A DNA stretch of 64,000 bases from Stenotrophomonas sp. ISL-67 (GTDB lineage Bacteria; Pseudomonadota; Gammaproteobacteria; Xanthomonadales; Xanthomonadaceae): contig NZ_JAGGRL010000006.1 in the NCBI RefSeq assembly GCF_018612915.1, positions 1 through 64,000 on the forward strand, in the 5' to 3' direction. The notes under the pieces were generated by a model that did no database searches, was not told the DNA's origin, and saw nothing but the letters and a program-made list of their open reading frames with translations. A program made the position numbers and the translations under genes. Shown here piece after piece: positions 46,478-51,941 of this stretch. Within the stretch, counting starts at the first letter, position 1; every line of letters begins with the position of its first letter.

Positions 46478-47212
46478 TCACCCGCACTTGGAGTACCCGC
46501 AGTTCAGGCAGGTCGCACACCCATCCATCATCACCTGCGCCTTGGTGAAACACTTTTCGCACATGCTGGCGCTGGGCGGGAAGCTGGCGCCATCGCCGGT
46601 GATGGCCAGGTCCTCCTCATGGTCGGCGGTGCTGCTCTGCTTCTCGCGCGCTTCGTACTGGCGGCGCTTCTCGGCGATCAGCGCGCGCTGGGCCGGGCTC
46701 ATCTCCGGGTCGTGGAGCAGGCCGATCGACTTGAGGTGGTGTTCGACGATGCTGCCCAGTTCGGCCACCAGCGAGGGCATGTAGGCGCCGCCGATCTTGT
46801 AGTAGCCGCCGCGCGGGTCGAACACGGCCTTCATCTCTTCGACCAGGAAGGTCACGTCGCCGCCCTTGCGGAACACGGCGGACATGATCCGGGTCAGCGC
46901 GACGATCCACTGGAAGTGCTCCATCGACTTGGAGTTGATGAACACTTCGAACGGGCGGCGCAGCTCATGTTCGGTGCCCGGGTTGAGCACGATGTCGTTG
47001 ATGGTCACGTAGAAGGCGTGTTCCACCAGCGGCGATTTGATCTTGTAGGTGTTGCCGACCAGGACGTCGGGGCGCTCGATGCGCTCGTGCATCTGCACGA
47101 TGTCGTTGGCGGCGTCCGCGAGGGCGGCGGCGGGGGCGGCAGCCTGGCGCGCCGTCTCCGCGGGGGTGACGACGGCGTAACCGGTGATCTTCTGATCGAT
47201 CCTGACGGCCAT
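46478..47212 (-). CDS. nrdJb: NrdJb, C-terminal part of the B12-dependent ribonucleotide reductase
   Basis: A 244-residue protein with the TSCPD domain (about 50-160, including KSMEHFQWIVALTRIMSAVFRKGGD) and a C-terminal cluster CEKCFTKAQVMMDGCATCLNCGYSKCG. In class II reductases these tail cysteines shuttle electrons to the active site; in Pseudomonas aeruginosa they are on a separate NrdJb subunit, as here. A GAGGA site precedes the ATG. It is 90 bases beyond the H1-like gene on the same strand as NrdJa, so the split reductase genes are near but not adjacent. Confidence 0.88.
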   Translation of the reverse strand: MAVRIDQKITGYAVVTPAETARQAAAPAAALADAANDIVQMHERIERPDVLVGNTYKIKSPLVEHAFYVTINDIVLNPGTEHELRRPFEVFINSKSMEHFQWIVALTRIMSAVFRKGGDVTFLVEEMKAVFDPRGGYYKIGGAYMPSLVAELGSIVEHHLKSIGLLHDPEMSPAQRALIAEKRRQYEAREKQSSTADHEEDLAITGDGASFPPSASMCEKCFTKAQVMMDGCATCLNCGYSKCG

Positions 47213-47301: not shown

Positions 47302-48201
47302 TTACTTGCGGGCGCGCTTGGCCGGGGCCTTGCGGGCCACGGTCTTGGCGGCGCGCTTGGCCGGTGCTGCCTTGCGGGCGACCGACTTGCGGGCAACGGC
47401 GGTCTTCTTGGCGACAGCCTTCTTGGTGGTGGCCGACTTGCGGGCCACGGTCTTCTTGGCGACAGCGACCTTCTTGCCGACCGTCTTGCGGGCGGTGGCG
47501 GTCTTCTTGGTAACGGCCTTCTTGGTGGCAGCGGACTTACGGGCTACGGTCTTCTTGGCTACAGCGACCTTCTTGCCAACCGTCTTGCGGGCGGTGGCGG
47601 TCTTCTTGCCCACGGCTTTCTTGGTGGCCGCCGACTTCTTGGCCACAGCCTTCTTGGCGGTGGCGACCTTCTTGCCGACAACCTTCTTGGCGGCGGCGGT
47701 CTTCTTGCCAACGACCTTCTTGGCGGTGGCAACCTTCTTGCCCACGACCTTCTTGGCGGCGGCAGTCTTCCTGGTCACGGCCTTCTTGGCGGTGGCGACC
47801 TTCTTGCCGGCAACCTTCTTGGCGGCCTTGGTGGTCTTGGTCACGGCCTTTCTGGCGGCAGCCTTCTTCTTGGCGACCTGCTTCTTCAGCGCGGCGGCCT
47901 CGGCCTTGGCATTGGTCTTGGCTGCTTCCAGCTTCTTCCTGGCGCTGGCCAGGGTCTTGCCAACCGACTTGGCGGCCTTGTCGGCCTTCTTGGCGACGGT
48001 CTTCTCGGCCTTCTTGACGGCCTTCTTGACCTTGGCAACCTGGGTGGTGGCAGTCTTGCGCGCGCGCTTGGCGGTCTTCTTCACCGAGGCGACCACTTCT
48101 TCAGCGGTGTGGGCGATGGTCTCGCCGACGTTGCCGGCGGTCTCTTTCACGTTTTCAACACCCTGCGACAGGGTCGCGGTCACGCCATTTCCGTTGCTCA
48201 T
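47302..48201 (-). CDS. histone H1-like Lys/Ala-rich DNA-binding protein
   Basis: A 299-residue basic protein. The first 80 residues are moderately charged and helical; residues 110-270 consist of about 14 tandem 11-residue units of the form V-x-K-K-x-A-x-A-K-K-x. This resembles the bacterial H1-like proteins and the C-terminal tail of AlgP in Pseudomonas. It would bind DNA non-specifically and compact the nucleoid. AGGAGG precedes the ATG by six bases, an ideal site for high expression. The DNA repeats (near-identical 99-bp blocks around 47380-47600) make length variation between strains likely. Confidence 0.88.
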   Translation of the reverse strand: MSNGNGVTATLSQGVENVKETAGNVGETIAHTAEEVVASVKKTAKRARKTATTQVAKVKKAVKKAEKTVAKKADKAAKSVGKTLASARKKLEAAKTNAKAEAAALKKQVAKKKAAARKAVTKTTKAAKKVAGKKVATAKKAVTRKTAAAKKVVGKKVATAKKVVGKKTAAAKKVVGKKVATAKKAVAKKSAATKKAVGKKTATARKTVGKKVAVAKKTVARKSAATKKAVTKKTATARKTVGKKVAVAKKTVARKSATTKKAVAKKTAVARKSVARKAAPAKRAAKTVARKAPAKRARK

Positions 48202-48382: not shown

Positions 48383-51300
48383 TCAGAACTTGCCGTAGTA
48401 ACCCTCCTTGAGCGCATCGAACAAGTTCGCGGCCGTGTGCAGTTCGCCGTCATACTCGATCTGTTCGTTGCCCTTGACCTCCACAACTGCGCCGTCCTGG
48501 AGTTCGAAACGGTAAGTGGTGTTCTCCAGATCGGCCTCCTTGACCAGCACGCCCTGGAACGCAGCGGGGTTGAAACGGAACGTGGTGCAGCCCTTCAACC
48601 CCTGCGCGTGGGCGTAGCGGTAGATGTCCTTGAACTGCTCGTAGGGGTAGTCGGTGGGTACGTTGGCGGTCTTGGAGATGGAGCTGTCCACCCACTTCTG
48701 TGCGGCGGCCTGGACGTCGACATGGGCCTTGGGCGATATGTCGTCGGCGGCGATGAAGTAGTCCGGCAGGCGGGCGCCGTCTTCGTCGGCGAACGGCATG
48801 GCCCGTGGGTTGACGAGGTGCCGGTAGGCCAGCAGCTCGTAGGAGAACACGTCCACCTTCTCCTTGCTCTTGCGCCCTTCGCGGATCACGTTGCGGCTGT
48901 AGTGGTGGGCGAAGGACGGCTCGATGCCGTTGGAGGCGTTGTTGGCCAGCGACAGGCTGATGGTGCCGGTGGGGGCAATGGAGCTGTGGTGGGTGAAGCG
49001 CGCGCCGATCCCGGCCAGCTCCTCCACCAGTTCCGGGGCCACGCTGGCGATGCGCTGCATGTAGCGGCTGTAACGGGCGTGCAGCACCTTGCCTTCGATC
49101 GGCTGGCCGACGCGCCAGCCATCGCCGGCCATCTCCGGGCGCTGGCGCAGCATGGCGGCGGTGACCTCGAAGGTTTCCTGCATGATCGGCGCCGGTCCCT
49201 TTTCGCGGGCCAGGCCGAGCGCGGTTTCCCAGCCGGCCACGGCCATCTCGCGGGCGATGTCTTCGGTGAAGGCGCAGGCGTCGGGTTCGCCGTACGTCAT
49301 GCGCAACATGGCCAGGGTCGAACCCAACCCCAGGAAGCCCATGCCGTGCCGGCGCTTGCGCAGGATTTCCTGGCGCTGCTGCTCCAGCGGCAGGCCGTTG
49401 ACCTCCACCACGTTGTCGAGCATGCGGGTGAACACCCGCACCACCTCTTTGTATTCGTCCCAGTCGAACCGGGCCTGCGCGGTGAACGGGTCGCGCACGA
49501 AGCGGGTGAGGTTGACCGAACCGAGCAGGCACGCGCCATACGGGGGCAAGGGCTGTTCGCCGCAGTTGTGGGCATGCAGGCCGTTGCCGTCGAAGCCGTT
49601 GATGCCGGGTACCTGGACGTCGTAGACGTCTTCCACCCCGTCCGGATCCACGCTTTCCACGGTGGCGACGAAGCGGCTGCGGTTTAGCGCGCGGCGGTAG
49701 GCGGCCAGCGTCCGGGTCAGGCGCGCGGCCTTGTCGGTGTCGGCGAACCCGATCAGCGCGTCGTAGCGGGCCACGCCTTCGCCGCTGATTACCAAGTCGA
49801 ACTGGGCCAGCGTGGGGTAGGCACGCTGGCCACCGCGACCATCAGGCAGAATCGAGTGCCCGGCTTCGCGGCGCGCGTAGAGGGTGCTGGGGATGCCCAG
49901 CCGGAGCAGCATGCGCTGCACGGCCTCCAGCCGCGGGCGATCAGACTGCGCCAACCGGACGGATACGCCCTTGCCTTGGCTGCCCTGCACACTGCCGTCG
50001 GCGTCGAACAGGCCGCGCAGGAAGCCACGGCAGGCATCGCTGGAAAGTTTTTCCAGAGCAGGGGTGATCGGTTTGTGGCCCGGGAACATGCCCAGCTGCT
50101 GGGCAAGATCGCGCAGCGCGGCTGACGTCAGGCGCCACTCGTTTCGCCCCTTCACTTCCGACCAGCCATCAAAGTCGGAGCGGTGCGACAGGGTTCGCGT
50201 GCAGCGGATTACTTCATCCATCAGCGCGCGGGTCCCTGCGGTAGGCACTCCCGGGTCGCCATTGGCAACCGCCGCCTGACACCACACCGAGAGCACGGCC
50301 CCATCTTGTTTAAGAGTCCCGTCGCCAACCAGAAACCCCAGCAGATAGCCCTGCTCATGCGCCAGCGCACCCGGCCAGTGCGGCGCCGCACGATGGTCCT
50401 GCAGCAACACCTCATCCCCCGCCTGCAGCTGGCCCGCCTCGCACCATTCGCTCTGCACCTCCCAGCGGGTGCGGTCGGTGACCCGGCGAACCCGATGATC
50501 GGCGGTCAGCCTCAGCCGATGGCCTTCGCGGGTCTGCAGGGCGAGTACCGGCTTGCGCGCAGTGAGGAAAAACCCAGCCTCGGTAGTGGCATGGTCCTGG
50601 CCATCCACGCGCGCCTGGAACCCCCGTCCAATCAGCTCGGCCACCTGGCGCGGCCCGTCGGCGGTGTGCACCCAGGTATCGGCGGTGACGCAGGGATTGG
50701 TGGCGCGGATGTCCTCGCACCACCAGTTGTTGTTCATTTCGTTGACCCGGTCGATCAGGATGAAACCCGGCTCGGCGTAGTCATAGGTGGACACCATGAT
50801 CATGTCCCACAGGTGCCGCGCGCGGATCTGGCCGTAGATGCGGCAGGCAACCCGATCGTCCTCGCGGACCAGATAGTCGCGGTGGGTCGGCCAATCGCGC
50901 CACTGCACGGCGGCCGGGTCGTCCAGGTCGAACTCGCCGGCCTCGTGGTGGCTCAACGGGAACACCAGCGGCCACTCGGCATCGTCGTCCACGGCCTGCA
51001 TGAAGCCGTCGGTGATCAGCAGCGACAGGTTGAACTGGCGCAGCCGGCCATCTTCGCGCTTGGCCCGGATGAAATCGCGCACATCCGGGTGGGAGACATC
51101 GAAGGTGCCCATCTGCGCGCCCCGGCGGCCACCGGCCGAGGAGATGGTGAAACACATCTTGTCGAAGATATCCATGAAGGACATCGGGCCGGAGGTGTGC
51201 GCGCCGGCCCCGGCCACGAACGCGCCGCGCGGGCGCAGCGTGCTGAACTCATAGCCGATGCCGCAGCCGGCCTTGAGGGTGAGGCCGGCTTCGTGGACCT

Positions 51301-51664
51301 TCTGCAGGATGCCGTCCATCGAATCTTCGAGGGTGCCCGAGACGGTGCAGTTGATGGTGCTGGTGGCCGGCTTGTGCGCCTGCGCACCGGCATTGGAAAT
51401 GATGCGGCCGGCAGGAATGGCGCCACGGCGCAGCGCCCAGGTGAAGCGCTCGCGCCAGTGCTGGCGATTTTCCTCGGTCAGTTCGGCATCGGCCAATGCA
51501 TGCGCTACGCGCAGGTAGGTGGCGTCGATATCGGCATCCAGCGCCTGGCCCTGCTTGGTCTTGAGCCGGTACTTCTTGTCCCAGATGTCCTGCGAGGCCG
51601 GCTGCAGCGGTACCTCGCCGGTGGCCAGCGCCAGGGGAATCACGTCCGTCTGCACCGTGCGCAT
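48383..51664 (-). CDS. nrdJa: NrdJa, B12-dependent ribonucleotide reductase catalytic subunit, intein-containing
   Basis: Class II reductase that turns ribonucleotides into deoxyribonucleotides using adenosylcobalamin, with or without oxygen. Landmarks (residue numbers count from an in-frame codon at 51844): the first redox Cys in STINCTVSG (166), GIGYEFSTLRPRG, and NNNWWCEDIRATNPC. The last phrase is broken after NP by a 376-residue intein and resumes as CGEQPLPPYG. After splicing, NPCGE carries the radical Cys and the catalytic Glu. The C-terminal half ends with TTYRFELQDG. I start at the ATG at 51664 (about 1093 residues including the intein); ATG at 51691 is possible. It begins a minus-strand cluster with the H1-like and nrdJb genes. 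Confidence 0.93.
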   Translation of the reverse strand: MRTVQTDVIPLALATGEVPLQPASQDIWDKKYRLKTKQGQALDADIDATYLRVAHALADAELTEENRQHWRERFTWALRRGAIPAGRIISNAGAQAHKPATSTINCTVSGTLEDSMDGILQKVHEAGLTLKAGCGIGYEFSTLRPRGAFVAGAGAHTSGPMSFMDIFDKMCFTISSAGGRRGAQMGTFDVSHPDVRDFIRAKREDGRLRQFNLSLLITDGFMQAVDDDAEWPLVFPLSHHEAGEFDLDDPAAVQWRDWPTHRDYLVREDDRVACRIYGQIRARHLWDMIMVSTYDYAEPGFILIDRVNEMNNNWWCEDIRATNPCVTADTWVHTADGPRQVAELIGRGFQARVDGQDHATTEAGFFLTARKPVLALQTREGHRLRLTADHRVRRVTDRTRWEVQSEWCEAGQLQAGDEVLLQDHRAAPHWPGALAHEQGYLLGFLVGDGTLKQDGAVLSVWCQAAVANGDPGVPTAGTRALMDEVIRCTRTLSHRSDFDGWSEVKGRNEWRLTSAALRDLAQQLGMFPGHKPITPALEKLSSDACRGFLRGLFDADGSVQGSQGKGVSVRLAQSDRPRLEAVQRMLLRLGIPSTLYARREAGHSILPDGRGGQRAYPTLAQFDLVISGEGVARYDALIGFADTDKAARLTRTLAAYRRALNRSRFVATVESVDPDGVEDVYDVQVPGINGFDGNGLHAHNCGEQPLPPYGACLLGSVNLTRFVRDPFTAQARFDWDEYKEVVRVFTRMLDNVVEVNGLPLEQQRQEILRKRRHGMGFLGLGSTLAMLRMTYGEPDACAFTEDIAREMAVAGWETALGLAREKGPAPIMQETFEVTAAMLRQRPEMAGDGWRVGQPIEGKVLHARYSRYMQRIASVAPELVEELAGIGARFTHHSSIAPTGTISLSLANNASNGIEPSFAHHYSRNVIREGRKSKEKVDVFSYELLAYRHLVNPRAMPFADEDGARLPDYFIAADDISPKAHVDVQAAAQKWVDSSISKTANVPTDYPYEQFKDIYRYAHAQGLKGCTTFRFNPAAFQGVLVKEADLENTTYRFELQDGAVVEVKGNEQIEYDGELHTAANLFDALKEGYYGKF
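49565..50692 (-). other. intein with LAGLIDADG homing endonuclease inside NrdJa
   Basis: 376 residues from the Cys of CVTADTWVHT to the Asn of GLHAHN, followed by Cys as the +1 residue. Block A starts with Cys1, block B is LRLTADHRVRR (Thr-x-x-His), and blocks F/G read DVYDVQVPGINGF...HAHN/C with the penultimate His and last Asn present. Two LAGLIDADG-type motifs, LLGFLVGDGT and LRGLFDADGS, flank about 100 residues. All residues needed for splicing look intact, and both endonuclease motifs keep their acidic residue. The insertion site is the known RNR site between NP and CGEQ. In-frame splicing would restore NPCGEQPL. Confidence 0.93.
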
Positions 51665-51740
51665 GCGTGGCAGGCTCCATCGGGTGGCCATCGGTGTGCC
51701 GCCAGGCTGACCCAATGCCTTGGGGCACTCTGGGTCGGCA

Positions 51741-51798: not shown

Positions 51799-51941
51799 CG
51801 GCGCGGATGGTCGCAGGGGCTGCGTCGTCCGGGCGCGATTTCATCGTCGGTTTAGCCGTCAGCAGACAGACTCATTCAGCTTGATTTACCGTATACGTGC
51901 TTTCCCCATCCCGCTGCCCGCCACGCGCCCCCCGGATTCCC

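Follow-up and report, generated by a model that had tools for sequence, protein, structure and literature searches.

The gene for the B12-dependent ribonucleotide reductase NrdJ in Stenotrophomonas sp. ISL-67 carries an in-frame insert of 376 residues, which is in all likelihood a mobile class 1 intein with an endonuclease domain, placed at the NP/CGEQ site of the enzyme, a selfish element and not a demonstrated regulator. The insert was studied in a window of 64,000 nucleotides, by which we mean the whole stretch of DNA that was analysed, and the coordinates are collected in Table 1. In translation the intein reads CVTADTW...GLHAHN, with ATNP before it and CGEQPLPPYGACLLG after it in one open NrdJ frame, and upstream of position 51691 this frame is still open as far as an ATG at 51844. 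The plus strand across the insert contains stops, and nrdJ lies on the minus strand.

Table 1. Features of the nrdJ locus, in positions of the window.
Feature	Position	Strand	Remark
nrdJ precursor frame, intein included	48383..51691	-	Ribonuc_red_lgC E 8.5e-122; whole frame is NCBIfam NrdJ_Z, 553 bits
N-extein, ending ...CEDIRATNP (-1 Pro, -2 Asn)	50693..51691	-	
376-residue intein: class 1 splicing domain with nested LAGLIDADG endonuclease	49565..50692	-	
Intein block B, T63-A-D-H66	50495..50506	-	from residue positions; T63 and H66 in 96/96
First LAGLIDADG acid, D124	50321..50323	-	from residue positions; 96/96
Second LAGLIDADG acid, D232	49997..49999	-	from residue positions; 94/96
Penultimate His375 and terminal Asn376	49565..49570	-	
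+1 Cys codon	49562..49564	-	aligned with 1xje Cys322
C-extein, starting CGEQPLPPYGAC, stop codon included	48383..49564	-	
TSCPD-domain ORF, downstream of nrdJ	46478..47212	-	
Histone-H1-like HC2 gene, between the TSCPD-domain ORF and nrdJ	47302..48201	-	

The residue set of a class 1 intein is complete (C1, T63-x-x-H66, H375, N376 and the +1 Cys), and the two LAGLIDADG motifs read LLGFLVGDG (D124) and LRGLFDADG (D232). Class 2 inteins are defined by the lack of a nucleophile at position 1, which is Cys in all 96 distinct rows of this intein type, and the single open frame shared with nrdJ sets the element apart from split inteins. The first-pass annotation had called an intein at this place; the call proved real, with its coordinates, all of the splicing residues and both LAGLIDADG acids correct, and on the two points at which it might have failed, the database search did not place the segment outside the intein families and no catalytic intein residue is missing. 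The GC content of the intein is 0.681 and its GC3 0.803, compared to GC3 values of 0.880 and 0.903 in the exteins, a gap that is too weak to be used as a sign of foreign origin. The TSCPD-domain ORF downstream of nrdJ contains CxxC motifs and corresponds, in a profile search, to the C-terminal end of NrdJ; we take the pairing of nrdJ with this separate ORF to be the split NrdJa/NrdJb layout as in Pseudomonas.

In Pfam, the intein matches LAGLIDADG_3 with E 9e-24. Its match to Intein_splicing, at E 5e-8, scores 33.3 bits and falls just short of the curated cut-off of 35.8; in alignment A2, each of the 61 rows reaches E 0.01 or better for the two families. An AlphaFold2 model of the intein (mean pLDDT 94) aligns over residues 1 to 376 with intein-endonuclease structures, the best being PI-PfuI (1dq3; Z 27.2, rmsd 4.4, 322 aligned, 17% identity). 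The splicing part of the model matches the DnaB, GyrA and RecA inteins, and the predicted structure contains the Hint fold (1mi8; Z 19.7, rmsd 1.7, 128 aligned). The invariance of the catalytic residues together with the match of the model to PI-PfuI excludes a chance resemblance.

The NrdJ profile and the active-site motif NPCGE flank the insert. In a phmmer alignment the +1 Cys (residue 710 of precursor P0002) pairs with Cys322 of Thermotoga maritima NrdJ (1xje), which we take to be the thiyl-radical cysteine, while Asn320 and Glu324 of that enzyme are presumably catalytic residues. With the +1 Cys aligned in this manner, the intein lies between Asn (-2) and Pro (-1) on one side and Cys (+1) and Glu (+3) on the other. 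The first-pass annotation had placed the insert in NrdJ, splitting NP/CGEQPL, and had proposed that the +1 Cys doubles as the radical cysteine; both hold up, given these roles of the 1xje residues. Its further statement that the reductase is dead until the intein splices is well supported by active-site geometry, as the catalytic Asn is held apart from the radical Cys and Glu by 376 residues, and the unspliced precursor is thus expected to be inactive. Inteins have been described within active sites before (PMC5784728, PMC5874633). The N-terminal junction is NP/C in every NrdJ and viral locus that was read (L129 was left unread), and the C-terminal junction is missing or unrecognised in L069 and in some of the viral loci. 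An empty site, NP/CGEQ, is found in 24 loci. Across all 124 distinct NrdJ rows (96 of type 1, which is the type found in the window, 4 of type 2 and 24 empty), the residue at -2 is Asn and that at -1 is Pro, and the site is followed by CGEQ.

The residues C1, T63, H66, D124, D230, H375 and N376 are invariant among the 96 type-1 rows, and D232 is replaced by Asn in two of them (L150 and L152). The type-2 inteins end in Gly-Gln and not in His-Asn, with a junction identical to that of type 1; all four keep C1, T63, H66, D124 and D232, and Gln replaces D230. A C-terminal Gln is compatible with splicing, as is known from, among others, a viral reductase intein (PMC4031507). Judged by their blastp matches (E 1e-29 and 4e-24), types 1 and 2 are distant homologues.

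Within the genus of the window, nrdJ was matched in 25 of 90 genomes, one of which (G012) holds a fragment only. The first-pass annotation had suggested a comparison of this site between related strains, which reveals both kinds of allele in the same genus: the intein is present in 4 of the 24 full-length nrdJ genes (G000, G015, G062 and G081), and the other 20 are uninterrupted. In the order, 38 of 398 genomes match; 33 have a type-1 intein in NrdJ, four (G111, G172, G185 and G211) have a type-2 intein of about 30% identity, and the match in G115 is a DnaB intein only. In the class, 51 of 379 genomes match, that of the window among them, and some of these matches lie in other genes only; 4 or 5 candidates were scored per genome in the genus, order and class searches. 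A wider genome collection contains 484 stretches that encode a relative of the intein, and the hosts in the best 80 of these 484 include Rhodanobacter, Dyella, Luteimonas, Lysobacter, Pseudomonas, Sedimenticola, Mariprofundus and others. The nearest named relative among the best 80 of 484 is in MAG UBA4619, labelled Stenotrophomonas maltophilia, with 90% intein identity. The search patterns for this collection were the two ends of the intein, and the ranking of the best 80 favours full-length inteins, hence the missing endonuclease-less forms mean little.

In IMG/VR, 16 loci at 28-58% were found in varied viral reductases, all starting with NP/C, although the first residues of the intein were part of the search pattern; where the end is recognised, the C-terminal junction is N/C[GSA]E. 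Among the named collections, phage records gave only 13 distant matches, all from Bacillus phages at about 22% identity, and plasmid records gave only two (33% and 22%). With nothing closer than these distant matches in the phage, plasmid and IMG/VR collections, a phage or plasmid vector was not identified. On this distribution the intein is a widespread, putatively mobile element and a common allele.

The aligned rows leave out L129, L069 (at a contig end), the DnaB inteins L066 and L067, the NrdA loci L002, L003 and L072, the overlapping copies L001, L034, L058 and L071, and the second member of each of 17 duplicate pairs; the trees additionally leave out rows with short exteins. L069 is without the C-terminal end of its intein. 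The type-1 intein of L070 (G257) is 436 residues long through a mid-intein insertion and lies in a long open frame. One further record, L081 (JAHREJ01), is titled Bacillus subtilis SK7B5, its nrdJ groups inside the genus of the window and its sequence is identical to L006 of G062, and the record is probably mislabelled or contaminated.

The histories of the intein and its host gene differ in places, as seen in trees of 87 type-1 inteins and 115 exteins (quick IQ-TREE, LG+G4). L046 and L040 have inteins that are 95% identical and exteins that are 85% identical, whereas L046 and L141 have exteins that are 93% identical and inteins that are 67% identical; a single clade of L046, L141 and L148, a group named after the tree had been seen, is rejected (AU p 0.009). 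Between L121 (Pseudomonas) and L132 (Stutzerimonas), intein dS is 0.03 and extein dS 0.53, the lowest ratio among 2901 pairs with a median of 1.75. These comparisons show that the intein moves horizontally in some lineages. Intein and extein distances are nevertheless correlated (r 0.71 in 3741 pairs), exteins are more similar than inteins in 97% of the pairs, and the intein is more alike by more than 3 points in only 38 of the 3741 pairs, those listed mostly involving L046 or L070. Since the two distances generally move together, much of the history of the intein may be vertical. The intein and extein trees also place the genus of the window and a Xanthomonas-type pair differently, and common descent of the inteins of these two was not rejected (AU p 0.109), for which reason horizontal acquisition by the genus itself is not claimed. 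Against L005, nucleotide identity in the flanks is 0.992 over the first 20 residues beside the junction and 0.938, 0.922 and 0.943 outward; against L004 it runs 0.958, 0.942, 0.917 and 0.953, without a clear trend, and co-conversion of the flanks was set aside. In its two LAGLIDADG motifs with their acids, the empty alleles in relatives and its horizontal spread, the insert resembles a homing element.

The intein and the exteins are under purifying selection. The window intein has a dN/dS of 0.18 relative to L004 and L005, for which the exteins give 0.06-0.14, and of 0.25 relative to L006, for which they give 0.19-0.21; the medians of 743 pairs are 0.23 for the splicing blocks, 0.28 for the endonuclease and 0.25 for the extein.

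Whether the intein splices can be approached through hosts that have little else to rely on. A set of 76 genomes, made up of 40 (the 38 order matches plus G015 and G062) and of 36 of the 50 class matches other than the window's own, was searched with PF00268 for the small subunit of class I and with PF13597 for class III; the 14 remaining class matches were short or weak, several of them in other genes. The large subunit (PF02867) was searched in 12 of the first 40 genomes, including all seven that were negative for the small subunit, and in all of the other 36. In 18 of the 76 genomes, the sole reductase detected is a NrdJ interrupted at NP/C, by type 1 in G232, G497, G507, G633, G647, G693, G709, G772, G788, G810 and G816, and by type 2 in G111, G172, G185, G493, G571, G626 and G637. 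A nineteenth genome, G694, has two NrdJ genes with an intein in both. Monomeric class II reductase (TIGR02505) was not found above the cut-off in these 19 genomes, a weak negative given that the control scored above it in only 1 of 14 genomes. Two of the 76 genomes (G115 and G764) lack an intein in NrdJ. Among the small-subunit-negative genomes, G238 (84% complete) and G286 (73%) were excluded as incomplete and G115 because its NrdJ is uninterrupted; in the remaining 55 genomes with an intein in NrdJ, G238 and G286 included, another reductase is present or not shown absent. The 18 sole-reductase genomes are 95-100% complete, four (G172, G185, G647 and G788) are single contigs, and the junctions were read in all 18. 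Because bacteria need dNTPs and no other reductase was detected, the intein must splice in these hosts, and on genetic grounds splicing almost certainly works there.

The window genome also carries class I NrdA and NrdB, both intein-free, and a failure of NrdJ to splice would not necessarily kill this organism, since that second reductase is present. One could thus imagine that the insert no longer splices, that NrdJ is a relic and that class I NrdAB supplies all dNTPs, a view to which the -1 Pro and the incompleteness of the window assembly (76% complete) also lend themselves. We regard it as extremely improbable, however, in that the splicing residues are all intact, dN/dS is low in exteins and intein alike when compared to L004 and L005, and relatives carry the same kind of intein in their sole detected reductase.

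The proline at -1, which occupies this position in the empty as well as in the intein-bearing NrdJ rows, deserves particular attention. In the Mth RIR1 intein the native -1 residue is reportedly Pro, and splicing in E. coli was poor until this Pro was replaced. A native -1 Pro in an intein is therefore probably not new; titles and the opening lines of abstracts, with subscription journals mostly outside their scope, contained no description of one, from which absence is not claimed, and the word 'proline' is absent from the main texts of PMC4031507 and PMC8229266. In tested inteins, -1 Pro is reported to be incompatible with splicing (PMC13123727). Judging by the sole-reductase hosts, natural inteins can cope with it. 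These hosts amount to a natural experiment, which strongly suggests splicing after proline, a reaction that bench work treats as forbidden, and such inteins could serve as tools to join proteins after Pro. Their coexistence with -1 Pro in all 124 NrdJ rows might also point to an atypical chemistry fitted to this residue, for example direct attack by the +1 Cys as in class 2. We consider this unlikely, in view of the invariance of Cys1 (96/96 in type 1 and 4/4 in type 2), a residue that is dispensable in a class 2 route, and of the behaviour of Mth RIR1, which suggests ordinary but slow chemistry.

The first-pass annotation had also raised the possibility that the intein works as a switch on dNTP supply, in which slow or conditional splicing at the Pro-Cys junction, responding to redox, temperature or metal, would set the amount of active NrdJ. 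The insertion at the radical Cys would make NrdJ activity wholly dependent on splicing, -1 Pro should slow the first step (PMC13123727), conditional inteins are known in other proteins, and genomes with an intein-bearing NrdJ as their sole detected reductase do exist. The evidence in the window and its relatives points elsewhere: the intein is patchy among close relatives (4/24) and horizontally transferred, as expected for a homing element, both endonuclease acids are kept in 94 of 96 type-1 inteins, and the window genome has its intein-free class I reductase. Furthermore, no Rfam family matched at the gathering threshold in the window, and an NrdR-box consensus gave no match there at up to 3 mismatches. 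A strictly conserved accessory cysteine that might sense redox is likewise missing; the best-conserved non-catalytic cysteine, C84, occurs in 91 of 96 type-1 inteins (absent in 5) and in none of the 4 type-2 inteins. The switch finds no support in these comparisons and is very improbable as the main explanation of this locus. Slow splicing at the Pro-Cys bond would be the one concrete route to a real switch. A clade of inteins may have specialised on the Pro-Cys junction, at which most inteins fail, such that where no other reductase exists the splicing rate sets dNTP supply and growth is coupled to splicing; this seems unlikely at present, and the question of a switch becomes testable in those organisms where the splicing rate could limit dNTP supply.

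The reading that we prefer, that of a mobile and selfish class 1 intein, can be put together as follows. Translation would yield an inactive NrdJ precursor, in which the Hint domain would convert the Pro-Cys1 bond into a thioester. The N-extein would then be passed to the +1 Cys, after which Asn376 would cyclise and Pro would be joined to Cys, so that the nucleophile of the splicing reaction would end up as the radical cysteine of the mature enzyme. The LAGLIDADG domain would presumably cut intein-free nrdJ alleles, and repair would copy the intein in. The intein would be retained as a selfish element where imprecise loss would destroy NrdJ.

Several other inteins were encountered in these genomes. 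Class I NrdA of L194 (G559), L196 (G729), L197 (G515), L198 (G572) and L200 (G672) is interrupted by an insert of 378 residues between the Q and the G of DTAVAVNQ/GGKRKGA, which starts with CFA and ends with HN; the same site is uninterrupted in L192 and L193. With Gly at +1, these inserts have no Cys, Ser or Thr nucleophile there and should be unable to splice by the canonical route; they perhaps act through aminolysis, like A-type BIL domains. No other PF02867 gene was found in G515, G572, G672 and G729, where the search covered the large subunit only, and G559 additionally has an intein-bearing NrdJ. The NrdA of L200 shows an apparent further insert ending NGLVVHN before CNLGSVNL, and thus appears to hold at least two inteins. 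In L192 (G563) and L193 (G764), the NrdA inteins lie directly after the radical cysteine (HSSNLC/CIAADQR...TKN/TEITL, with +1 Thr), which means that inteins flank the radical cysteine on either side in different reductases; the L192 intein, the one compared by blastp, resembles the type-2 NrdJ intein (E 7e-44) more than that of the window (E 3e-25). A second site within NrdJ, LKAG/CVASGTW...IHN/CGIGYEFS, is occupied in L137 (440 residues), with a fragment in L070. L169 belongs to the sole-reductase genome G647 and shows the C-terminal junction of this second site, hence its NrdJ appears to carry two inteins. Finally, inteins are present in putative DnaB proteins, recognised by eye, of L066 (G115) and L067 (G232), at DLRE/C...SHN/SGAIEQD; G232 therefore has inteins in both DnaB and its sole detected reductase.

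The closest published relative is the LAGLIDADG_3 intein at residues 321-690 of nrdJa in Azotobacter chroococcum NCIMB 8003, reported in 2015 to be lacking in A. vinelandii and in the Pseudomonas species in the database at that time, and to be potentially present in Rhodanobacter fulvus (PMC4465626). It resembles that of the window in its B12-dependent NrdJ and its LAGLIDADG_3 endonuclease, with the site likened by position only, and differs in its host; the passage that describes it is silent on the radical Cys, on -1 Pro and on hosts without another reductase. A reductase intein is also present in M. capsulatus (PMC517821). By position, the A. chroococcum intein is very probably the same allele as that of the window. 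PI-PfuI (1dq3), which we take to be a Pyrococcus reductase intein, shares the combination of an intein with a LAGLIDADG endonuclease and is the best structural match, and differs from the window intein in sequence (17% identity). The Mth RIR1 mini-intein is also a reductase intein with a native -1 Pro, but is archaeal and is not known to carry an endonuclease. The NrdJ-1 intein (8ubs) is a reductase intein by name with the Hint fold (Z 17.9), and its junction is presumably NPC/S, one residue later than the site in the window. Unlike the window intein, NrdJ-1 is split, has a +1 Ser and is compromised by -1 Pro (PMC13123727). The reductase intein of Chilo iridescent virus splices with a native C-terminal Gln (PMC4031507), a likeness to type 2 that covers this residue only, its host being a eukaryotic virus. 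The R2 intein of Aquifex aeolicus, which spliced in E. coli, similarly separates catalytic-site residues of a reductase, although these belong to a class I beta subunit and are metal ligands rather than a radical Cys (PMC8772380). Active-site inteins in reductases are thus already known and, as an observation, the window intein is ordinary; two diverged lineages, with His-Asn and Gly-Gln ends, at one codon boundary offer a clean case for studying how homing elements choose their site and are retained there.
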